DNA of 64,000 nt, from the NCBI RefSeq assembly GCF_000686845.1, contig NZ_JMLS01000003.1, positions 310,001-374,000 of the forward strand, read 5' to 3'. Shown one piece after another: positions 7,236 to 64,000 of the stretch; position 1 is the first letter of the stretch, and every line of letters starts with the position of its first letter. Source of the stretch: Paenibacillus sp. UNC451MF (GTDB taxonomy: Bacteria; Bacillota; Bacilli; Paenibacillales; NBRC-103111). Under the pieces are notes generated by a model. The model searched no databases. It saw only the letters and a list, made by a program, of their open reading frames with translations, and was not told the origin of the DNA. The position numbers and the translations under genes were made by a program.

Positions 7236-8384
7236 TTAATCAACTCTGCCTTTGTATTTTCCCGTATGAAGCAGTTTCACTTTAACTTCGATATTATTCA
7301 ACGATTTCTCATCAAAAATGAAATCCTGATTTTGATGAAGCTCGTGCCATTTTTGGGGATAATCCCTGTATAATGCTTGATCCAATTTGAGCACATCCAG
7401 TTTTTTTTCTAAGCCTTTCTTGTAAGTATTTCGAATTTCGTTCTTTATTACTTTAGCAGCTTGTTCTTCCATCGTTTTCTCAGGAATATTAGCGTTTAAT
7501 TCGTCCAAATAGGCTTGAATTTTTATAGTTATATTAAACAAAGCTTTTCCGTCTTGAAACACGGAGGTGATTTTGGAACTTGGGTGCAGCAACACGATGG
7601 CTGCTGTTGGATTTTTATCGTTAGGGATGTTGATGGGTGAACGCTCCAATTTTTTTTGAATCCAGCGGTAGCCTATAAGATCTCCTTCGGAGAGCCAACC
7701 GGTCATTTTACCCTTATTAAAAAAATAGGCACCATCAATTTTTAACAGAGACTTAGGCTTAGTGTCTTCATGCCAGTTTGCTTTGTCAAGCGTCAATGAA
7801 GGTAGCATTGCCGGATCACCGGGTTCATTTATTTGAGCTAAAAGCTTGAAACCATATACAGGTACGATATACGATCGCTGTGAAAAGGTCTGCGTAGGTG
7901 TATCCAGGATAGAATCCAAGGGTGAAAAATTAAGTATAGATTTCGTATGTAGCACCTCCTGAAGAGGTTCTTTAGTACCGTAAAGTAAAATATTGTACCG
8001 AACCTCTCTATAGCGGTTAAGCATATCATAGGCTTCTTTTATTTTATCACCATGCTTTAACATATTCTCAGATATGACAATGGATTTGAGATGGCCCCAG
8101 AATACGCGAATCTGCGATGTGGCATAGATAGAGTTAAACGATTCGGTAAGGGTAGTGCCTTCTCCTTTACCAATCCATATCGGAATGTTTTTACCGAGTT
8201 CAGTCGATTCCACCTTAGCCACACTTGAAAAGTTTAACACTTGCACATAGCTGATATATTTCCCATCCTTGTAATCGATTCCTAGCGCCGTGACATAAGC
8301 CATCCTTTGTATATCCTTGGAATTCCAACAGCCCGGAAGCAGCAGGAGTGCCAATGATATGAGCAAGATTTTCATGAGATTCAT
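7236..8384 (-). CDS. gerAC: Spore germinant receptor C subunit (Ger(x)C lipoprotein)
   Basis: A 382-residue lipoprotein of a GerA-type nutrient receptor. The signal peptide ends in the lipobox LLPGC with Cys19 as the lipidation site, followed by the family opening WNSKDIQRMAYVTALGIDY. The fold matches the three-domain GerBC family. It should sit on the outer face of the spore inner membrane, attached to the A and B subunits. Its ATG overlaps the gerA stop as ATGA, so the three genes are translationally coupled. It is last in a B-A-C operon. The nutrient sensed cannot be inferred. Confidence 0.92.
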   Translation of the reverse strand: MNLMKILLISLALLLLPGCWNSKDIQRMAYVTALGIDYKDGKYISYVQVLNFSSVAKVESTELGKNIPIWIGKGEGTTLTESFNSIYATSQIRVFWGHLKSIVISENMLKHGDKIKEAYDMLNRYREVRYNILLYGTKEPLQEVLHTKSILNFSPLDSILDTPTQTFSQRSYIVPVYGFKLLAQINEPGDPAMLPSLTLDKANWHEDTKPKSLLKIDGAYFFNKGKMTGWLSEGDLIGYRWIQKKLERSPINIPNDKNPTAAIVLLHPSSKITSVFQDGKALFNITIKIQAYLDELNANIPEKTMEEQAAKVIKNEIRNTYKKGLEKKLDVLKLDQALYRDYPQKWHELHQNQDFIFDEKSLNNIEVKVKLLHTGKYKGRVD

Positions 8385-53180: not shown

Positions 53181-54302
53181 ATGGACAGATACGACAATGC
53201 CAAAATATCCGTACGTCAGTTTTCAATCTTAATTATGATTGGGATTATTGGAGATTCGATTCTTGTTCTTCCTACCATTGTTGCTGCTTCGGCTAAACAG
53301 GATGCTTGGCTATCCATGCTGCTTGCTTTACTACTTGGATTGGCTTCAGGTATCCTTTTTGGGGCAATTGCAAATAAGCTCCAAGGGAAAAGCCTTATAA
53401 CAGGGGCACGAGAAAAGCTAGGGATATGGGGGGGGAGCTTTTTCGGTATTCTGTTTTTGGTTGAATTTTATATGTGCGATCTAACGCTGTTAAGTGAGAT
53501 GAGTCAATTTATGACCACACAGATGATGCCAGAGACCCCTGTCAATGCCATCATTTTGTTTTTTATTGCGGTTATTATTATTGCATACAGATATGGCTTA
53601 GAAGCTTTCGCGCGAATGGGTGAGCTGCTCTTTCCGATCATTATGATGCTGTTCGTGTTTCTTGTCGTCTTCTTGATTCCTCAAGCGGATACATCGAATT
53701 TGCTACCGATAGCTGGCCATGGAATGGGTCCGATAATGAATGGAATAGTACCTGCATTTACATTCGGATTTGCTGAAATGGTTGTTCTTCTAATGTTGGT
53801 TCCGCATGTTGTCGATAATACGAAGCTGACAAAACCGATTCTGACGAGTTTTGTACTGGGGGGCACCATATTGTTCTTGGTGGTTCTCTTTTGCGTATTG
53901 GTGCTCGGCTCTAACTTAATGGAAACGAAGTATTATCCAACGTTTGTCTTAGCGCAAAAAATTCAGGTCGGCAATTTCCTGGAACGCTTGGAAGCAATCA
54001 TCGCCTTTTTATGGATTATTACCGTGTTTTATAAAACGCTGCTTAATTACTTCGCGCTTACGACCGGAATTGCGCAGCTGCTACGGCTTAAGGAGAGCCA
54101 TATGCTGACGATCCCGATTGGTATGATTCTGCTTGTGAGTGCGATTGTCAGTACACCGAATATTACGGTATATAACGATATCCTAAATAACTATTATCCG
54201 TGGTTCGACATGAGCTTTTGTGTCGGGCTGCCCATTGTATTTCTTATCATGCTGTTCATTGCAGGTAAACGTAAAAAGGATGGCAAAATCAATTCCATTT
54301 AG
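53181..54302 (+). CDS. gerAB: Spore germinant receptor B subunit, second operon
   Basis: A 373-residue spore permease with about ten helices. The segments MIGIIGDSILVLPTIVA and IVPAFTFGFAEMVVLLML match the GerB family. It is the last gene of the operon. ACAAGGAGG lies before the ATG. No strong terminator is seen within 100 bp. Confidence 0.93.
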   Translation: MDRYDNAKISVRQFSILIMIGIIGDSILVLPTIVAASAKQDAWLSMLLALLLGLASGILFGAIANKLQGKSLITGAREKLGIWGGSFFGILFLVEFYMCDLTLLSEMSQFMTTQMMPETPVNAIILFFIAVIIIAYRYGLEAFARMGELLFPIIMMLFVFLVVFLIPQADTSNLLPIAGHGMGPIMNGIVPAFTFGFAEMVVLLMLVPHVVDNTKLTKPILTSFVLGGTILFLVVLFCVLVLGSNLMETKYYPTFVLAQKIQVGNFLERLEAIIAFLWIITVFYKTLLNYFALTTGIAQLLRLKESHMLTIPIGMILLVSAIVSTPNITVYNDILNNYYPWFDMSFCVGLPIVFLIMLFIAGKRKKDGKINSI

Positions 54303-54902
54303 CGCTTTTAATGAATGAAAATCTTTAAGTTTAAAGTTAATATTCGCCAAATGGTATGATAAATCGTCCATTTTCATCTCACTCTAGACGTTTCAAAAAT
54401 GAAGAATTATGGAAGGCACTGTCTGCGTGTCAACAATGGTTATAAGGAAGGGGTGGAAGAGTTTAAGAAATACTTTCATTACTATAGCGTAAAATGTGGA
54501 GCACTTAATTATTTATTTTAGGATTGGGAGTGTGAATCAGCTTTAAATAGAGAAAAAAAGTACGTTGGGATAATTTACCATTAAATGGATGGTGAATGAT
54601 ACGTAAAAGTTAAATGAAATTACAGAGAAACTAATTTGATAAAAATTTTGATTGTACAAAAATCCTGATTGATTATTTATAACGCAAAAAACAAATAAAT
54701 AACAAAACATGAAAAAAACAAATAAGTAGTAATAAAAAACAAAACAAAAAAAGGATTAAAAAACAAAAACAAGAATAGCAATTAGTGAATAGTAAAATGA
54801 AAAAATCGTAAAATGGCTTGTAAGAGCTTTGGCTGAATTAATTAAACTTTTAATTAAACTTATTACATTTACACAAAACCCGTATTTTGTACATATGTCA
54901 AT

Positions 54903-54975
54903 TCCTTTAGTTCAAGGATGCCTCGGCCCCCGATTCTTTCGTATTTGTGGGTCCTTTAGTTCAAGGATGCCTCGG
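54903..54975. repeat. Pair of 24-bp direct repeats
   Basis: Both copies begin TCCTTTAG, continue TTCAAGGATG and end CCTCGG (54903-54926 and 54952-54975). The unit contains a small dyad CCTT-N6-AAGG. The 25 bases between copies are unrelated. Confidence 0.6.
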
Positions 54976-55067
54976 TATTCTCTATGGATTTTCAATCTTT
55001 GTTTCTTTCTTATTTTATTAAACGAAACCAAAAAAAATAATTAAAGCAATAGCAGCTAAATAATATA

Positions 55068-55102
55068 AACCGTCAGACTGAGGAAGCCTGACGGTTTTTC
55101 TT
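55068..55102. terminator. Terminator beside the stalk-domain gene
   Basis: AAACCGTCAG (55068-55077) pairs with CTGACGGTTT (55088-55097). The T-run is on the plus side, but the hairpin lies 33 bp past the minus-strand stop and probably ends that gene. Confidence 0.7.
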
Positions 55103-55129
55103 CATATTACCTCGGCGCTCCATAAGAGT

Positions 55130-55888
55130 CTATTTCGAGCTATCCTTAGCGGCAGCATTTCCGTTATCAAAATAAGAAGTGTCTAGAATCCTGGCATAAA
55201 TATAAGGATTTAGGTTCGGACTTTGTACATGGATTTTGATTTTTTCCAGACCCTCTACATTAAATGTAAGCTGCTTAATACCGTCTTCTGGACTGATTGT
55301 ATGCTTTTCCAAAACAGTCGAGGCTGCGCTTCCTGCAGCGGTTCCCCAATTATAAAGCGAAAACTCCACCTCATGCTCCCCAGGGCTTATGACTGCTGCA
55401 TCCAGGAGGAGTCGCTTGAATTTACGGTCAATCGTAAACTCAACATCTCCATATTGGTCGATCTTTAATACTTCTTCGAACTGTTTCCCTTTCACCATTG
55501 TTTCATTGGGGTCTTTTGACTGCGTCACATAGATGTTATCAATCTCCATCGGAGTGGCAAAAATCGGTCTTTTCTCTCCTGGTTTTCCTCCAATGAAAAT
55601 GGTTTGGGAATCAGCATCATAATCGATCGGTATCTTTAGCGCTTCAGCCACAGCGCGTACCGGCAAATAGTTATTTCCGTTATAAAAAATTGGGGTCAGC
55701 GGTTTTCCTGACTCGTCCTTGGGCTGCCACAAATCTCCTTTCAGTACAAATGATACTCCTTTGTTAAAAAATGCATTGATCGGTTCCAGATTAACCGCCG
55801 CATAGGCGGACCCAAAGGAGCTGGCAACAATCGCAACGACAAATAAAGCAATCTTGACCATTTTCATTTTCCTAAAAAACATCTTCAA
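55130..55888 (-). CDS. Copper-amine-oxidase-N-like stalk domain protein
   Basis: A 252-residue secreted protein. A signal peptide (about 8-31, ending GSAYA) precedes a copper amine oxidase N-domain-like stalk (about 40-110), recognised by FYNGNNYLPVRAVAEALKI and the DSQTIFIG strand. The C-terminal 140 residues are beta-rich and unassigned. Stalk domains of this kind are numerous in Paenibacillus envelope proteins. The start is uncertain: TTG 55888 has AAGGGCGAG nearby, ATG 55882 or later codons are possible. Confidence 0.75.
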   Translation of the reverse strand: MKMFFRKMKMVKIALFVVAIVASSFGSAYAAVNLEPINAFFNKGVSFVLKGDLWQPKDESGKPLTPIFYNGNNYLPVRAVAEALKIPIDYDADSQTIFIGGKPGEKRPIFATPMEIDNIYVTQSKDPNETMVKGKQFEEVLKIDQYGDVEFTIDRKFKRLLLDAAVISPGEHEVEFSLYNWGTAAGSAASTVLEKHTISPEDGIKQLTFNVEGLEKIKIHVQSPNLNPYIYARILDTSYFDNGNAAAKDSSK

Positions 55889-55952
55889 TGTGAACTCGCC
55901 CTTCCTTAATATAATGGATTTTGACCTATTCGTAACATGGAGTATTTCAAAA

Positions 55953-58049
55953 TCACTTTTTGCCCAACATAGCCAAGATGGCCGTCACAGCTTCTGCCCT
56001 GGTCGTCTTATTATCCGCTGCAAAGCGGTTATCGCGCATAAAATCGGCAATGCCGGATTTTTTTGCTGCTGCTGCGGCACCCTTAGCCCATGCTGGAATA
56101 TCGGTGTCATCGGCAAACCCGGATTGTGCCTTTTCGTCGACAGGCAGACCGGATGCTCTGACGACCATGGCGATCATTTCCGCATGGGTGATATTAGAGT
56201 CTGGTTGGAAGGTGCCGTCCGGATAACCGCTAACTATTCCAAGCTGTACAGCCTGTGATACTGCCTTTACGGCCCATTCTCCTATCTTGTCTTGATCTGC
56301 AAAAGCGAGCTTTGCACCTTCTGCTGCCGGTTTCATCCCATTCATAAGCAAGACGGCAAACTCAGCGCGTGTAACGTTGCCATCCGGTCGGAACGTGAAG
56401 TCTGGGTAACCGTTAGCGATACGAAGCTCGACAGCTTTAATGATGTTCGCTTTTGCCCAATGATCCGCAATATCCGAAAATGGAAGATCCTGCGAAGCAG
56501 CCGGTTTTGATGATGGCGTAACCGTTACGGCGCATACGGCGATGAATCCTCCGTCCTCGGTAGAGACTGTAATTTTCGCCGTACCCGGTTCGATTCCGGT
56601 AACTTTTCCCTCATTATCCACCTTAGCAACCGTACTGTCACTGCTGGTCCACTTCACCTTCTTGTTCAATGCCGCGTCAGGGACAACCGCTGCCGTCAAC
56701 GTTTCGCTATCTCCTGATTGCAGGTTCATTGCTTTCTTGTTCAAATTGACGCTTGTGGCGTCGGTGCCAAGAGCGAATAATGACTTCTCCGATACCATAT
56801 AGACCGTGCCGTCGCTTCCGACGGATGGGCTTTGCAAACCAAAGCCTTTGGCGAAATATTGCCATTTTACTTTGCCGTCAGAGTCTATTGCGTAAAATAA
56901 ATTATTATTAGTGGAGCCTGGGATTTTCGTGCCATCCGCTCCTGCAGCGTATATCGTTTTATCCCTCCCAACCACTGGGGCTGGATAAAACGATTGTCTT
57001 GCAGACAAAAATGACATTTTCGATAGATACGGTTTTCCGGTTTCCATTCCCCATTTAATTGCTCCGTTCGGATGGATTGCAAGCAGCTTCATGTCGGACC
57101 AAATATATAGGATATCGTCTGTTCCGACGGTTGGTGTGGAATATGTTTGATAGTTTTTACTCCATTTTTCTGAACCAAATGTATTAATGGAAAAAATAGT
57201 ATCACCCGATGAACTGAACGATTCCACATATACGGTACCGTCGGCTCCTAACACGGGAGAATTAAATATTGTATTGAGTTGAGGTGTACGGAATAACCAT
57301 TTCAACTTTCCATTCGGTTTGATTGCATAAAGATCGCCCTTTTCGGTTCCGACATAAATCGTTCCATCGCTTCCGACAGTTGGGGAATATACTTCACCTC
57401 CCGTTGGGAATACCCACTGTTTCGTGCCATCCGGATTAAGTGCATACAGCTCAGTTGCTCCTCCTACATAGATCGTATCGTCAGCTCCAACTACCGGTGA
57501 TTTATATCTATACCGTTCAAAGCTCATGCAACAGTCGTATGCAGTTAAAGAACCTCCCCTGGCGAATTCCCACTTCTTATTCCCGGCTTGATCTATAGCA
57601 TACACGTTGCCATCAATACTAGCCGCATAGATCGTACCGTCGGAGCCGAAGGCGGCAGGGACATAGGTTGTACTTCCCAATGAAATCTCCCGACGTTTAG
57701 TTCCGTCAGGGTTAATTGCGTACAGCTTTTTATTTTCCGTTCCCACATAGATGGTACCGTCCGGAGATATTATCGGAGAAGTAGTTATGTTGGCATCAAA
57801 GTAGTTGTATTCCCACTTTGCTTTACCTATCGGAATACCGCTTAAGTACGGTGTGATGAACTCATAAGATTTGGAATCAATTGGAACTTTCAAATCAAGC
57901 TTTAGATGGGGTGTTTCCTCTGCTGTGGCAAGGGTGGGGAGCAATACCGAAATCGACAGCACGGCTGATAAGATGAGTGCTGTTATTCTCCATTCGATTA
58001 TTGATATATAGATCAAATCCTTTCGATGATAATGGTATCGTGCGAACAA
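55953..58049 (-). CDS. S-layer-anchored PQQ-repeat / Big2 protein
   Basis: A 698-residue surface protein. A hydrophobic signal segment (about 20-43, ending ATAEE) is followed by PQQ-type beta-propeller repeats (about 60-435), each with DGTIYVG-like sequence. A Big2 Ig-like domain (about 440-515) has VKWTSSDSTVAKVDNEGKVT. Three SLH motifs (about 525-698, with FRPDGNVTRAEFA and FQPDSNITHAEM) anchor it to secondary cell-wall polymer. The start is uncertain: the TTG at 58049 has no good ribosome site and lies in a region with another ORF fragment, so the 5' end may be rearranged. Confidence 0.85.
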   Translation of the reverse strand: MFARYHYHRKDLIYISIIEWRITALILSAVLSISVLLPTLATAEETPHLKLDLKVPIDSKSYEFITPYLSGIPIGKAKWEYNYFDANITTSPIISPDGTIYVGTENKKLYAINPDGTKRREISLGSTTYVPAAFGSDGTIYAASIDGNVYAIDQAGNKKWEFARGGSLTAYDCCMSFERYRYKSPVVGADDTIYVGGATELYALNPDGTKQWVFPTGGEVYSPTVGSDGTIYVGTEKGDLYAIKPNGKLKWLFRTPQLNTIFNSPVLGADGTVYVESFSSSGDTIFSINTFGSEKWSKNYQTYSTPTVGTDDILYIWSDMKLLAIHPNGAIKWGMETGKPYLSKMSFLSARQSFYPAPVVGRDKTIYAAGADGTKIPGSTNNNLFYAIDSDGKVKWQYFAKGFGLQSPSVGSDGTVYMVSEKSLFALGTDATSVNLNKKAMNLQSGDSETLTAAVVPDAALNKKVKWTSSDSTVAKVDNEGKVTGIEPGTAKITVSTEDGGFIAVCAVTVTPSSKPAASQDLPFSDIADHWAKANIIKAVELRIANGYPDFTFRPDGNVTRAEFAVLLMNGMKPAAEGAKLAFADQDKIGEWAVKAVSQAVQLGIVSGYPDGTFQPDSNITHAEMIAMVVRASGLPVDEKAQSGFADDTDIPAWAKGAAAAAKKSGIADFMRDNRFAADNKTTRAEAVTAILAMLGKK

Positions 58050-58637
58050 GCCCAGAACATGGAGGATTCACTCATTCTTTGGTGAAAAAAAACTACCATT
58101 CCATATTCCGTTATGGTAAAAGTTGGCGATTGGATAAGTGCCATGATATCATCGGTGACCTGATCGGGCAGATCGGCAATTCGGGTCAAAAGCTATGTGA
58201 GAGGATTGCCGAGGATCGTTAAGATGTGAATAATAGGCTGAAAGGAAGGCGGCAATATAGCCAGACGACGGGTCATCAAGTAGAGGATCGTATTGACGTA
58301 GCTGTTTCTTTATTTAAATTCTAATTGTTTGAAAAGAACACTTCAAGGGAAAAGATACCTACTTCCAATCAGTTACTAAAGTCCCTTTTTACGGAAGAAA
58401 ATCCCGCTTCAAGCGCTTTTAAACCAGATCTGACATTGAAGACTTAATGTTTTTTCAGTTGCCACAGGTACAATGAACGCTTTTTCATATTCGTTTTGTG
58501 GCGTAGATAAATGCTAAGTATTCTGGCCCAAATTGGTTGAAGTGACTAAACTTGTCCAGACTACTTCAAAAATAATAATCAAGTGTTCCTTGATCAAGTC
58601 TCCGTTGTTCGAGGATCCTTGCCAAGATTCGTAAATC

Positions 58638-58782
58638 TACAATGTAGGTAGTTTTGTGTCACAATACTACAATGTAGGGAAATTTGTGCATTTTGTACTG
58701 ACACAAATTCCCTACATAAAAATAATAAAAGCTTGAGTAATCAAGCTTTTTCGGATAGGTTTATGTAGGCACTTTTGTGTCA
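58638..58782. repeat. Cluster of four 20-24-bp repeats around a hairpin
   Basis: Units at 58638-58661, 58668-58690 and 58762-58782 share ATGTAGG-N4-TTTGTG(T)CA in the plus direction; 58699-58718 carries it inverted (TGACACAAATTCCCTACATA). Such multiple binding sites are typical of transposon ends (IS21- or Tn7-type), but no transposase is present. Confidence 0.6.
58727..58753 (+). terminator. Terminator-like hairpin within the repeat cluster
   Basis: AAAAGCTTGA (58727-58736) pairs perfectly with TCAAGCTTTT (58741-58750) around GTAA, followed by T. Symmetric enough to work in both directions. Confidence 0.6.
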
Positions 58783-58881
58783 TTGGACAAATTTCCTGTG
58801 AGCTTTTTCATGATGCCCTCTTCACTGTATGAATGGCAAGCAAGTATATTATTTATCCGGTACCCGGAGTTAATTTCGTAT

Positions 58882-59142
58882 TCAGCCAGCCTGTTGAATA
58901 GAGAGATGGCCCATGCTCCTAGTTACTTGGAACGTGGGCCAAAAAATTAGATAACACAGCCACAAAGAACAATGACTAACAAAATAAAAAGAACCAAAAT
59001 AGTTGCAGAGTTTGTAAATATTCCGCCTACTCCACCCATTTTTGAACCCTCCTACCAATTTGTCTTGAGGTTTTTACCCCAAAATCAAGTTATGCAGGAT
59101 ACATATCTAATGTTTGGACGTTTGACATGGGGTTACATTTAT
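58882..59142. repeat. 261-bp duplication, left copy
   Basis: Closely similar to 60630-60890 in the same orientation, same length, with scattered substitutions. It begins in the tail of an upstream frame ending SQPVE-stop and includes a whole minus-strand microprotein gene with its ribosome site and upstream region. Confidence 0.85.
58947..59039 (-). CDS. YjcZ-like sporulation microprotein, copy 1 (30 aa)
   Basis: A 30-residue ORF: MGGVGGIFTNSATILVLFIL, continuing LVIVLCGCVI. A glycine-rich start followed by one hydrophobic helix (ILVLFILLVIVL) and a terminal cysteine pair resembles the YjcZ family of small sporulation proteins. GGAGGGTTCAAAA gives an ideal ribosome site. About 60 bp upstream, AAC and CATAACTT lie 17 bp apart, which resembles a sigma K promoter. 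Twin of the gene at 60696-60788. Confidence 0.72.
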   Translation of the reverse strand: MGGVGGIFTNSATILVLFILLVIVLCGCVI

Positions 59143-59726
59143 CATAGAAATTAAAATCCTTAAGATAATTCCAACCCATTTTTTTCAGGTGTCCAGGCAC
59201 CTAATCTAAAGTAAATGGTTATAATATTTTGTAGCGAAGCCGCTCATTCGCTTTTTGATCCCCGTATTTGAAGTGAAATGAAGCATCCACCAGTACAAAC
59301 TGGTGGATGCTTCATTTTTATGAAACCCGAAAAGTACATATGACTAAGCATAAACGATTGTCGATTTCTTCCAATACCAAGTAATGTTTCATTTGTATTT
59401 TCCTCATCTTGGTTTTTCTCTCATTTTAACCTCAAGTTAGTATCCTGCCAATACATACCTCATGCTTAGTCTCATTTCATCGCTATCTATCATTGATTTT
59501 CATGTTCATTCACTTGAGACCATTAGTCCCTTATGTATCAGATCATTTTTTACCGTTATTTTCGTGACCCGATAGCTCACTCTGGTGCAAATGCCCATAA
59601 AATGGGTGTATGACTCAGTAACAAATGCGGATATGTTCCATACATTGGAATTATGTTTAGAAGTGATCGATTTTTCTATCATGCCCTTGTTTACTTACGG
59701 AAAACAATAATGGGAGGTTTTTTCAA
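59143..59726. other. Upstream region of the Cys-repeat peptide gene
   Basis: No credible ORF. It contains a perfect 15-bp hairpin terminator (59280-59320). CATACATT at 59639-59646 matches the sigma E -10 consensus, but no good -35 was found. The strong GGGAGG ribosome site of the peptide gene is at the right end. Confidence 0.45.
59280..59320. terminator. Perfect 15-bp hairpin terminator
   Basis: GAAGCATCCACCAGT (59280-59294) pairs with ACTGGTGGATGCTTC (59299-59313) around ACAA, followed by ATTTTTA. No intact gene ends directly before it on either strand, so it may close a lost gene or a small RNA. Confidence 0.75.
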
Positions 59727-60017
59727 ATGAATGAGTTTATAAACGATCTTCAACAGTTGGACGTTACCCAGTTTCAGGCGAGTGACATGACACCTTGGAT
59801 CGATGAAAGCCAGTATCAGGCAGGTCAATTCCCGATGGGTGTAAATCCGAATGATCCGTCAAGACTATGTGTTGGTTTTTGTGCGGGTTTTTGTGGAGGC
59901 TTTTGCGGTGTTTTCTGCAGCGGTTTTTGCAGTGGCTTTTGTGGGGGTTTCTGTGGCTTCCGCTGTGGCGGATTTCGTTGTGGTGGATTTCATTGTGGTG
60001 GATTTCGCTGCCGTTAA
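59727..60017 (+). CDS. Cys-Gly-Phe repeat peptide, heterocycloanthracin/sonorensin-like precursor
   Basis: A 96-residue peptide in two parts. The leader (1-47) is acidic and Gln/Asp-rich: MNEFINDLQQLDVTQFQASD then MTPWIDESQYQAGQFP. The core begins at Cys48 and has twelve cysteines: seven CxxF units (CVGF, CAGF, CGGF, CGVF, CSGF, CSGF, CGGF), then CGFR and CGGF(R/H) units, ending CR. This leader and Cys-repeat layout recalls the heterocycloanthracin/sonorensin bacteriocins, whose cysteines are cyclised to thiazoles by a SagBCD-type machinery often encoded far away. No such enzyme, exporter or immunity gene is visible nearby. GGGAGG precedes the ATG, and a terminator follows. Confidence 0.7.
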   Translation: MNEFINDLQQLDVTQFQASDMTPWIDESQYQAGQFPMGVNPNDPSRLCVGFCAGFCGGFCGVFCSGFCSGFCGGFCGFRCGGFRCGGFHCGGFRCR

Positions 60018-60066
60018 TTCCAAAGTTCTCAGCCAACCTCAATCACAGCTGCCAGCAGCTTAATTC

Positions 60067-60106
60067 ATGCCCCTTACAACTTGTCGTTGTGTAAGGGGCA
60101 TTGTTC
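60067..60106 (+). terminator. Terminator after the Cys-repeat peptide gene
   Basis: ATGCCCCTTACA pairs with TGTAAGGGGCAT, followed by T-rich sequence, 50 bp past the stop. Confidence 0.75.
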
Positions 60107-60629
60107 ATTTTGATCTACCTGAACTCCTGGATTCTTGGCATTTATGATTTAAAATGTTGTTCATGATCAAGACAGACTCGAGATACCTACCTGAATTTGG
60201 GCTAATCCATAAAATTATGAACCCCCAATAATAAACATTAGCATAACGAGGCTCCCGATCCACCTCGGAAGCCTCGCCCTATTTATTTTTATATTAGACT
60301 ATAATTCTTCATTATCTCAAATTTGATCTAAACACATTTCTTCTTCGTACCAAGGGGCAGTACTTGGTTTTCTCCCCTTCCAACCTGCTGTATGGTGCAG
60401 AGTTTTCGGACGATAAGATACTGCAGGGGCGCACAAAAATTTATTGGTATTCACAACGACGGCAGCTTGGCCCGGATTTCCGAAGATTCCGATTAATCAT
60501 CAGCAGAACTGGACGCCCGATTCCCTTGTGATCAGTTGTCAGATGAAAATAAACTGAAAAATAAAGTATTAGACCGTGAAAATAAAGTTGTAGACTGGCT
60601 GCATGCGTTATACGAACGAGCAGGATGCA
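60102..60629. other. Gene-poor stretch with ORF remnants
   Basis: A terminator-like hairpin (60247-60276, CGAGGCT and AGCCTCG arms, then ATTTATTTTTA) is followed by broken frames: 60340-60495 reads openly in more than one frame, and 60495-60650 encodes a charged tail (DENKLKNKVLDRENKVVDWL) ending SQPVE-stop with no start. This looks like the decayed 3' end of a gene. A short related tail also ends before the left duplication copy. Family not recognised. Confidence 0.4.
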
Positions 60630-60890
60630 TCAGCCAGCCGGTTGAATAGAGAGATGGCCCATGTTCCAAGTAATTAGGAGCAACGGCTAAAAAGATTAGA
60701 TAAAACAGCCGCAAAGGACAATGACTAACAAAATAAAAAGAACCAAAATAGTTGCAGAGTTTGTAAATATTCCGTCTACTCCACCCATTTTTGAGTCCTC
60801 CCTCCAATTTGTCTTGAGGTATTTACCCCAAAATCAAGTTATGCGGAATAATATATAATGTTTGGACGTTTGACATGGGGTTACATTTAT
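60630..60890. repeat. 261-bp duplication, right copy
   Basis: Same orientation as the copy at 58882-59142; the two are 1.75 kb apart and flank the Cys-repeat peptide gene. Direct copies could recombine and delete the gene between them. Confidence 0.85.
60696..60788 (-). CDS. YjcZ-like sporulation microprotein, copy 2 (30 aa)
   Basis: A 30-residue twin of the gene at 58947-59039, differing at residue 5 (Asp for Gly) and residue 29 (Phe for Val). The membrane helix, the CGC motif, the GGAGGACT ribosome region and the CATAACTT element upstream are retained. Most other changes in the repeat are silent or outside the frame, which suggests that both copies are kept by selection. Confidence 0.72.
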   Translation of the reverse strand: MGGVDGIFTNSATILVLFILLVIVLCGCFI

Positions 60891-60947
60891 AATCCCACTA
60901 ACTCCTAATACTTTATTTTCATCGAACACCAGTGGCAACGGAGATTC

Positions 60948-61199
60948 GTGGAAGGACGCCTCGTTCGGTCCGACGTTCCCAAGCAAGACGACTTCGCACA
61001 AGCCGGTCATAATCGTGCTCTTGCCCCCATTGCAGACATAAAGCAGAAGATATTAAAACAGAATGGGCTTTTAATTATTCCAAATTTCCACAAAATAGGA
61101 CTTTTTATTGTAAACAAACCGATTTTAGAAAAATACACTGGTAATATGGTTAACAATGGCTTTTGCGAAATATGTGTTCCTATAAAAGGTTATAAGTAA
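60948..61199 (+). CDS. Uncharacterised 83-codon ORF, possibly a remnant
   Basis: An open frame of 83 codons starting at a GTG without a clear ribosome site. The frame is also open upstream of the start. The end (VNNGFCEICVPIKG) faintly resembles the C-terminus of GyrI-like effector-binding domains. The first half is unlike it, so this may be two joined remnants. Not recognised as a known gene. Confidence 0.25.
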   Translation: MEGRLVRSDVPKQDDFAQAGHNRALAPIADIKQKILKQNGLLIIPNFHKIGLFIVNKPILEKYTGNMVNNGFCEICVPIKGYK

Positions 61200-61450
61200 C
61201 GATATCTTCCGTTTGTATGAAAAAGGTTGTCGCCCGCTTTGATCGGCTACCATGGTATCTTTCTTTGAGCTAGCTGTTCGCGTTTACCATGTAATCCTGC
61301 CCATTTAGCTTAATGACGAAGAGGACCTCTACAACACCTGCCCCTCCAGACATGATCTCCGTTAGTTCAACGTTTTTTACGTATAAAGGTTGTACTGAGA
61401 TAAAATAAATGCACGTTAAATGATGTGCGTACAGTTCAAACAAAGACAAA
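61200..61450. other. Intergenic stretch before the aroA leader
   Basis: No plus-strand gene. On the minus strand a frame ending LFVIKLNGQDYMVNANS (stop near 61278) starts at an ATG near 61356 with CGGAG upstream; 27 codons, perhaps a gene tail. The promoter of the T-box transcript should lie in 61380-61450 but was not pinned down. Confidence 0.3.
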
Positions 61451-61720
61451 AGCGATGAAGGAGAGAGTAAGCGGTTTAAGGTTCTTGACAGGGACGGTGT
61501 GCCGACTGACTGAGAGCACCCGAATGAATCTATCCGCCGAAGTTCACTCCTGAGTTGGTTTGCTGAACGAATCTCAATCTCTGAGATCGCTAGGTATACC
61601 CGTGGTTCTCTGCGTTAAAGAGGTTAAAGTGAGAAATGGGGCATGCCTCTGGGTAAGCGTCATTTCTAATAAGGGTGGTACCACGGCTCCTCGTCCCTTT
61701 CAGACAGGAGTCATTTTGTT
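61451..61720 (+). promoter_or_regulatory. T-box riboswitch, phenylalanine specifier (UUC)
   Basis: Stem I opens with GATGAAGGAGAGAGTAAGCGG; AGGAG pairs with CTCCT, and AGCGG with CCGCC. On the 3' strand of the specifier loop GAA-G-TTC-A (61539-61546) gives codon UUC at 61543-61545, phenylalanine. The T-box AGGGTGGTACCACGG (61672-61686) is perfect. The competing hairpin (GCTCCT and AGGAGT arms, 61686-61712) is followed by CATTTTGTTGTT, a modest terminator. Uncharged tRNA-Phe should allow expression of the downstream aromatic pathway gene. Confidence 0.92.
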
Positions 61721-61750
61721 GTTCTATTACGATCATAAGGGGAGATTTAA

Positions 61751-62821
61751 ATGAAAACATCCAGCTTGGAGCACTTAAGAGACAAACTAAACATCATCAA
61801 TCATAACCTTCTTGAGCTTTTATGCTATCGGGCTTGCATCGTCAAAGAAATCGGTGAAGTAAAGGAAAAACAAGGAACGCCTAAGTTCGATCCTCTTCGT
61901 GAGAGGGCAATGCTGGACGAATTGGTTGCCGCGAACAAGGGACCGTTCGATGATAAAACGATCCAACATTTATTCAAACAGATTTTTCAAGCCTCTTTAA
62001 ATCTTCAAGAATCCGAGCATAAGAAACATTTACTAGTCAGCCGCAAGAAGCAACAGGAAGACACTATCGTTCATATAGGCGATGTAGCCGTCGGGGGATC
62101 AAATCCATTAATAATCGCAGGTCCTTGCTCGGTCGAAAGCTATGAACAAGTTCGACTTGTGGCAAAAGCTTTAAAGGAGGCGGGCATTACAGTGATACGC
62201 GGAGGAGCGTTCAAACCTAGGACATCGCCATATGATTTCCAGGGTCTCGGGTTCGAAGGCCTGAAAATTTTGAAAGAGGCTGCAAGCGAATTCAGCCTGA
62301 AGACGATTAGTGAAATTGTAGACCCGAGACATATCGAACTTGCTTCTGAATATATAGATGTTATTCAAATCGGGGCTCGCAACATGCAGAATTTCGAATT
62401 ACTTAAAGCTGCAGGCGAAGCCCGGACACCAATACTCCTAAAGCGAGGGCTGGCAGCGACAATAGACGAGTTTTTACATGCAGCAGAGTATATCATATCC
62501 AGAGGCAACACCCAAGTTATGCTGATTGAGCGTGGAATCCGAACCTATGAGAAGGCGACTCGTAACACGCTGGACATCTCCGCAGTGCCAATACTGAAGC
62601 AAGAAAGTCATTTACCTGTCCTTGTGGATGTAACCCATTCAACTGGTAGAAAAGATATACTTGCGCCATGTGCAAAAGCGGCTCTCGCGGCTGGTGCTGA
62701 TGGTGTTATGGTAGAAGTCCACCCAGATCCTGAAACAGCTTTATCCGATGCTACACAACAACTTAACATTGATGAATTCAACCGTTTCTATGCCAATGTT
62801 AAAGAATCTGGATTGCTGTAA
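61751..62821 (+). CDS. aroA: Chorismate mutase / 3-deoxy-7-phosphoheptulonate synthase
   Basis: A 356-residue bifunctional enzyme of the B. subtilis AroA(G) type. Residues 1-90 form an AroQ-class chorismate mutase, which in this family also acts as the feedback-sensing domain for chorismate and prephenate. Residues about 105-350 form the type I-beta DAHP synthase, with [29 protein letters not shown] and the C-terminal [17 protein letters not shown]. It makes DAHP from phosphoenolpyruvate and erythrose 4-phosphate, the entry to aromatic amino acids. It stands alone behind a phenylalanine T-box. Confidence 0.95.
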
Positions 62822-62891
62822 AACAAAACAAAGAAACAGTAAAACCGATTGCTTCTGTTTTGGATGACGGTACTGACCAATGTCGCCTACC

Positions 62892-63722
62892 TCAGCGTAA
62901 AATAATCATTAGCAATGCAGCAATGATCGCTATGACGCTGCTTGTGCTAAAAGCCACCATAGGACCAAACGTCTGCCACAGGAATCCTGCCATTATACTG
63001 GCTGGTAATGCGGCTATTCCGATCATTGAATTATAAGTTCCCATCGCAGTTCCGCGTTGTCCTTCAGGTACAATATCGGCAATGTATGCCTTTTGTATAC
63101 CTTCTGTAAACGCATAATAAAGTCCATAAAATATGAACAATACCCAAATCCACATGACACTCTTTGCCATCCCAAAACCAAAATAAATCAATGCAAACAT
63201 AATAAATCCATAAATTAATACCGGTCGACGACCGATCCGGTCAGATAACATTCCTATAGGCATGGAAAAGATGCTGCTGCTCATATTTAATGCAAAAAAG
63301 GCTAGAGGAATCAGTGCAGGAAGCATTCCTACATCTTGTGCGCGTAAAGCCAAAAAAGCATCAGAAAAGTTCCCAACAGCAAATAAAGTAGATATTAAAG
63401 TGAATATAATAAAGCGGCGGTTTAAATTACGAAATCCTATCTTCGGAAGCGATGTTTTCTTTTGATTTTCGTCATGTCTTTTCTCTTTTAAGAAAAATAC
63501 AGTAAGAGCAACCGCAACGAGTCCTGGTATAACTGACAGCCAAAATACAAGGTGAAAATTGTTTGCATATATAGCAAGTATCCCAAATGCAACTAACGGT
63601 CCAAGTGCGGCTCCGAGAGCATCCATTACACGGCGAAATCCAAATGCTCTTCCACGCTCTTCTTTAGTTGTGGAATCTGCGACCAATGCGTCACGAGGTG
63701 AAGTGCGTATTCCTGCGAATTC
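62892..63722 (-). pseudogene. MFS transporter, N-terminally truncated
   Basis: An open frame of about 275 codons with no proper start. It holds the MFS segment GIRTSPRDALVADSTTKEER and the following eight helices to the C-terminus; the motif MLSDRIGRRPVLIYG is intact. The first four or so helices, about 130 residues, are missing. Homology begins near 63716, and a GAATTC sits at 63717-63722 beside a penicillin-binding-protein-like fragment. The family is the drug or sugar efflux type often annotated as YfmO or YxiO-like; substrate unknown. Confidence 0.75.
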
Positions 63723-64000
63723 ATGAGCTTGAGTGAGGAAACTGAATCGTTTCGAGGGAGCTGAACAGCCTGCAGGATCTCGCCGGCAGGCTGTTTAATT
63801 AACTGGGTTGTCGCGATCTGATCGAGAATGGCTTGCTGCGCGGTGAGCTGCACCTTGCGATTAATCGTTAGATACAGATTCTGCCCCTTGACCGGCTTGC
63901 TCAGCTTCATGTCGCCGACGATCCGGCTCATGCTGTCCGATTTGATAGGATTTATAACCGTTAAGGCCCCGCATCTCCTTCTGATACATCAACTCGATGC
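63723..64000 (-). pseudogene. Penicillin-binding-protein-like fragment, frameshifted and truncated
   Basis: The minus strand reads ELMYQKEMRGLNGYKSYQI at the window edge, then continues in another frame with SMSRIVGDMKLSKPVKGQNL and YLTINRKVQLTAQQAILDQI. This is the region before the catalytic domain of class B PBPs such as SpoVD. A frame change near 63930 joins the two parts. The catalytic part is absent: sequence runs into the truncated MFS gene at about 63717. A 10-bp inverted repeat with arms AACAGCCTGC and GCAGGCTGTT (63764-63795) lies in it. Confidence 0.6.

Follow-up and report, generated by a model that had tools for sequence, protein, structure and literature searches.

A Probable Precursor of a Heterocycloanthracin-Type Azole Peptide with a Cys-Xaa-Xaa-Phe Core in Paenibacillus sp. 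UNC451MF

Introduction

The DNA analysed here, called the window below, is a stretch of 64,000 nucleotides of Paenibacillus sp. UNC451MF (contig NZ_JMLS01000003.1, positions 310,001 to 374,000). It contains an open reading frame at 59727..60017 (+) that encodes a protein of 96 residues, in which a leader is followed by a core with 12 regularly spaced cysteines. The question raised by this locus is whether the protein is the precursor of an azole-containing peptide and, if so, which enzymes of the host would mature it. A first-pass annotation had placed these enzymes outside the window, and our genome searches with TIGR03604 and TIGR03693 indeed located no YcaO or F protein inside it.

Results and Discussion

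The frame starts with ATG at 59727, ends with TAA at 60015-60017 and has no internal stop. The leader (MNEFINDLQQLDVTQFQ...NDPSRL, 59727..59867, +), which can be followed through an alignment of 15 precursors (A1), comprises 47 residues ahead of the first cysteine, residue 48, and its residues 1-46 include seven Asp/Glu and a single Arg. In the core (59868..60014, +), which has ten CxxF units, the cysteines are spaced by 4,4,4,4,4,4,4,4,5,5,5 residues, that is, eight intervals of four are followed by three of five. The C-x-x-F tetrads thus give way to the pentads CGGFR, CGGFH and CGGFR, and a Phe precedes 7 of the 12 cysteines. The acidic leader and the twelve-cysteine CxxF core of the first-pass annotation are therefore correct, while its description of all pentads as CGGFR has to be amended.

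A ribosome-binding site, GGGAGG, can be read from the sequence at 59712..59717 (+), and GGAG is conserved at this position in the upstream alignment of the relatives. Downstream of the gene, a hairpin (ATGCCCCTTACA..TGTAAGGGGCAT) followed by a T-rich stretch forms a probable intrinsic terminator at 60067..60111 (+). The fold of 60018-60120 has an energy of -26.8 kcal/mol (z -3.47), which was reached by 0 of 200 shuffles, although the hairpin is absent from the list of the consensus terminator scanner.

The open reading frame is not a product of chance, because matching precursors are found at E <= 1e-3 in 12 of the 13 genomes of the genus (own genome included) and because its differences from the nearest relative follow the codon positions. 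This relative, L093, is the first gene of a complete cassette in Paenibacillus sp. 32352 and shares 88% identity with the window protein over 95 residues. Over the 96 codons, 8, 6 and 43 differences fall on codon positions 1, 2 and 3, respectively; the leader has a dN of 0.083 and a dS of 2.25, and the core has a dN of 0.039 with saturated dS. The coding sequence has been kept over most of the divergence from L093, with the reservation that dN/dS joins both lineages, which leaves room for a recent decay of the window copy. When positions 54000-64000 of the window are compared with the L093 locus, DNA likeness is confined to 59570-60020 (78.7%), that is, to the upstream region and the gene. The two loci share the upstream element described below and the same core grammar. 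However, L093 lies directly ahead of its F, YcaO and SagB genes, whereas the window copy is ca 8 kb away from the nearest F-YcaO pair, which has neither an RRE nor SagB.

We next consider the relation to the heterocycloanthracins, which the first-pass annotation had proposed together with sonorensin as the closest likeness. The full window protein matches TIGR03601 of NCBIfam with 28.9 bits (E 1.4e-6), below the curated cut-off of 35 bits, and the leader alone with 23.4 bits (E 7e-5). The cut-off is passed by the 88%-identical L093 (36.7 bits) and by a precursor of the same genome on contig 14 (44.2 bits). So that the Cys-rich core could not influence the result, a leader-only model was built from seven precursors of the CXX type, all from Bacillus relatives (L117, L118, L119, L120, L122, L124, L125). 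Among 2628 start sites in the window, this model finds the present frame with E 5.9e-10; the only other significant hit is an inner start of the same frame (E 0.0055), and the best unrelated start has E 0.88. The proposed likeness is hence borne out by both models, and the leader agrees with the heterocycloanthracin family rather than with an unrelated spore coat family; a Pfam search of the protein gave no match.

As to membership in TIGR03601 proper, the leader is homologous and the genome encodes F, fused YcaO and SagB proteins (contigs 13 and 14). The cassette is not located beside the precursor, an arrangement that is frequent but not required (PMC2674419). Since the score is below the curated cut-off and the core is not made of Cys-Xaa-Xaa triplets, we file the protein as a variant and not as a plain member. 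In the family, 57 of 104 genomes have a TIGR03601 match at E <= 1e-4, counted over all core types together, and 47 have one above the cut-off.

A scan of named genomes yielded 34 loci, of which 21 have at least three C-x-x-F units (20 from Paenibacillus, one from Cohnella) and 13 have at most one (four from Paenibacillus, nine from other Bacillus relatives). In 28 of the 34, an F match begins 143-257 nt 3' of the precursor and is followed by YcaO and SagB. Among the exceptions, L099 (Paenibacillus cremeus, 8001-8321) is a CxxF precursor with the upstream element but no F in the next 1174 nt, which are free of N, and L103 (Paenibacillus piri) is a free-standing precursor with no F within about 8 kb downstream. 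In L107 (Paenibacillus foliorum, 8001 onward), all that remains of F behind the precursor and its element is a stretch of its first 43 residues; this locus looks like a cassette caught in decay. The remaining exceptions are L119, without F, and L120 and L121, where F is ca 5 kb away.

Among 43 YcaO proteins placed in a tree, the 19 from cassettes with a CxxF-core precursor form one clade with a support of 100/100, apart from the 14 of the triplet cassettes (85/76) and from 10 that belong to F-YcaO pairs without an RRE (97/96). The tree leaves out the duplicate row L096, and L119-L121 contribute no row. It should be noted that the precursors of contig 14 and L110 mix CGGC with CxGF units; a script based on the majority spacing calls them triplet, and they were labelled tetrad by lineage, a label that is not fully independent of the tree itself.

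Upstream of the gene, there is a conserved element (consensus TTTGGTACAAAnGCCCATAAAATGGGCGTTTGACTCAGTAACAAATGCGGA..CCATAAATTGGAATCATGT, 59580..59660, +), identified by alignments and genome scans, with the pattern match of the window at 59617-59642. About 75 nt are conserved in the window, at the contig 14 precursor and at 20 of the 21 named CxxF loci, which together make up the 22 rows of alignment A2; L103, whose upstream region lacks the element in the upstream alignment, was left out. A strict pattern containing CAGTAACA is present at 13 of the 21 named CxxF loci and at none of the 13 triplet loci. A looser pattern, AGTAACANNNGCGGAN{4,9}CCATA, occurs 12 times in the 13 genomes of the genus and 26 times in the family (in 23 of 104 genomes), and a reversed control pattern has no match over the same 104 genomes. 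At 25 of the 26 matches, the start of a leader-bearing precursor with CxxF, CxxV or CxxP units follows at a distance of 41-86 nt, although 18 of the matches are expected by construction, the pattern having been made from those loci; of the eight new ones, seven have a precursor and only L174 (G075 contig 23, 115126-115151) does not.

The element is probably a promoter or operator. We prefer a DNA element over an RNA element, which was considered and rejected since Rfam gives no match on 59400-60250 up to E 1 and covariation in the aligned upstream regions is negligible (a term of 0.03, and a single pair for which one sequence is compensatory). Another option considered was an upstream open frame running over the element, but a one-base length difference between species, seen by eye, breaks the frame. 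No sigma-70 promoter was found on the + strand of 59300-60300. The arrangement AAC, 16-17 nt, CATA may be ECF-like. Together, the enzyme phylogeny and the private upstream element support the assignment of the CxxF-core precursors to a putative new subfamily, as the first-pass annotation had suggested.

The first-pass annotation had also proposed a search for YcaO and SagB enzymes as a check, and the outcome is positive. The host genome (7.49 Mb) has three YcaO genes above the TIGR03604 cut-off, two of which are part of complete F-YcaO-SagB cassettes with SagB-type dehydrogenases exceeding the TIGR03605 cut-off. On contig 14 the order is precursor, F (TIGR03693), YcaO and SagB, and the precursor is 74% identical to that of the window. 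The genes on contig 13 are arranged in the same way, and their precursor (L006 9994-10302, -), found by a pattern search, has 18 cysteines in a triplet core of the CHN type. A triplet-type and a tetrad-type system are accordingly present in one cell.

The third YcaO is part of a pair with F on contig 3 (378003-381496; L004 14003-17496), on the strand opposite to the window gene. This pair lies ca 8 kb to the right of the gene and begins 4 kb past the right end of the window. Its YcaO retains the full domain, above the cut-off, while its F matches the profile only from position 130 onward, and no SagB was found in 20 kb around the pair or the window precursor. An RRE model built from 24 complete F proteins recognises the F proteins of contig 13 (E 8.3e-49) and contig 14 (E 8.9e-59), and it finds nothing up to E 1 over the 20 kb with the contig 3 pair. 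Residues 10-90 of F match the solved PbtF chain 8T19, which we take to be an RRE.

In this class, the leader is bound by the F protein on behalf of a cyclodehydratase that has no such binding part of its own (PMC4603692, section 15), and a heterocycloanthracin precursor may be located far from its cassette, in one case at 1.27 Mb (PMC2674419). Because the nearest pair consists of an RRE-less F and a YcaO without SagB, the contig 14 cassette, acting in trans, is the likeliest candidate for maturing the window precursor, whose leader would pair with the contig 14 F protein. A point against this assignment is that the first 30 residues of the two leaders differ by eight substitutions and one gap (by eye), and homology does not prove that the contig 14 enzymes would accept the window leader.

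Pairs of an RRE-less F and a YcaO without SagB are found in 9 of the 13 genomes of the genus (L004, L071, L076, L078, L079, L083, L086, L089, L091), with the F match starting at profile position 126-131; a tenth pair (G001, L069) retains the second half of the RRE region. Their presence in nine genomes and their single YcaO clade led us to reject the idea that the RRE-less F is a decay product of one genome. The small Cys-rich open reading frames beside these pairs include no conserved TOMM-like precursor. A YjcZ-like mini membrane protein is encoded within 2.5 kb of 8 of the 10 RRE-less F genes (0.09 expected), for example at L004 19534-19650 (-), L071 9680-9793 (+) and L086 9281-9409 (-). 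The corresponding numbers are 2 of 12 for the tetrad cassettes (0.12 expected), 0 of 4 for the triplet cassettes and 0 of 3 for the free-standing precursors, a contrast that is smaller than it appears, as related loci are not independent, and from which the two copies in the window and those beside the G001 pair are excluded. Most of the YjcZ-like proteins upstream of the RRE-less pairs have SC or SCSC ahead of the membrane helix.

The two window copies are near-identical genes for 30 residues that flank the precursor (58947-59039 and 60696-60788, both -). They lie in a direct repeat, D1 (58941-59101 and 60690-60850, 93% identical), and the TIGR01732 match of the first one is weak (E 0.038). 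At 62892-63992, the window contains a truncated gene for an MFS transporter and a fragment of one for a penicillin-binding protein, both of which look broken.

With these observations at hand, the alternatives can be weighed. The window peptide could belong to the same class and be matured by the contig 3 pair, alone or with the F protein of contig 14, to an azoline-only product. The short distance of ca 8 kb in a 7.49-Mb genome would fit, as would the intact YcaO domain and the case of Paenibacillus piri (L079), in which a tetrad cassette with all its genes is immediately followed by an RRE-less pair. However, the contig 3 F lacks the leader-binding part, the RRE-less pairs form a YcaO clade of their own, and in 8 of the 10 genomes a pattern search found no such precursor in the 17-20 kb around the pair (the exceptions being G000 and G005). 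Moreover, in G011, the genome that contains L093, the search for F found a single one, which is complete. We consider this route improbable.

It is also conceivable that the gene is a relic from a lost cassette, readable but no longer made. The 43-residue F remnant of P. foliorum L107 represents such a state, other free-standing copies exist in P. piri (L103) and P. cremeus (L099), and the penicillin-binding-protein and MFS genes at the right edge of the window look broken. Yet the frame, the element, the ribosome-binding site and the terminator hairpin are all intact, and in comparison with the nearest relative synonymous sites are saturated or nearly so while replacements are few, which makes a relic unlikely. 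Finally, the low-complexity Cys/Gly/Phe core and the YjcZ-like genes on either side, which are sporulation-annotated with weak matches, could be taken to indicate a protein rich in Cys and Gly that serves in the spore coat or in metal binding and has no relation to azole peptides. The homology of the leader to the TIGR03601 precursors and the location of 28 of the 34 named relatives in YcaO cassettes speak strongly enough against this for us to regard it as very remote.

Conclusion

The best explanation, to which we assign a probability of about 0.85 on the basis of sequence comparisons, is that the open reading frame encodes the precursor of a linear TOMM containing thiazoles or thiazolines, of the heterocycloanthracin/sonorensin type, in a Paenibacillaceae branch with a C-x-x-F core. 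Transcription would start at the conserved upstream element, and the F protein of the contig 14 cassette, supplied in trans, would bind the leader through its RRE. By analogy with the family, the fused YcaO cyclodehydratase would then close the cysteines, mostly after Phe, to thiazolines, which the SagB-type enzyme would oxidise to thiazoles. Removal of the leader would release a peptide rich in Phe, Gly and azoles, which would probably inhibit competing bacteria.

One can further speculate that these Paenibacillaceae possess two azole-forming machines. One would be the CxxF cassette, whose private cis-element also drives free-standing precursors, such that one enzyme set gives several Phe-thiazole peptides. 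The other would be the F-YcaO pair that lacks both RRE and SagB and is inherited vertically. It would dispense with the usual recognition of a leader and might act on the adjoining small Cys-containing YjcZ-like membrane peptides or on leader-bound substrates passed on from the first machine. We offer this picture tentatively and consider it doubtful as a whole.

Heterocycloanthracin cores have been described as Cys-Xaa-Xaa repeats, and a Cys-Xaa-Xaa-Phe clade with matching enzymes would yield poly-azole peptides of a different chemical make-up. The triplet precursor of contig 13 and the mixed tetrad/triplet precursor of contig 14, occurring in one cell, are a natural pair for studying how cyclodehydratases read the repeat spacing. 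The private upstream element provides a handle on regulation and a pointer to free-standing precursors below the cut-off, such as the window gene. Among known peptides, sonorensin from Bacillus sonorensis has a core of CWSC-type repeats. In the part of the publication available to us, its authors class it as a predicted heterocycloanthracin subfamily and report that it kills Gram-positive and Gram-negative cells and raises membrane permeability, with no description of its azoles in that part (PMC4544038). A TOMM precursor of P. polymyxa is, from the available part of its description, of a different, NHLP type (PMC7343975). The main texts of the open-licence literature, as far as accessible, name no CxxF-core heterocycloanthracin from Paenibacillus, and an earlier description elsewhere is possible.

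Among the closest known systems is heterocycloanthracin (Haft 2009, PMC2674419; TIGR03601), with which the window precursor shares a homologous leader, a Cys-rich repetitive core, the presence of F (TIGR03693), fused YcaO and SagB in the genome, and a precursor that can be distant from them. It differs in that the C-x-x repeat is replaced by C-x-x-F with a period of four and then by a period of five, and in that it belongs to a branch with an upstream element of its own, a separate enzyme clade and, for the window protein, a score below the family cut-off.
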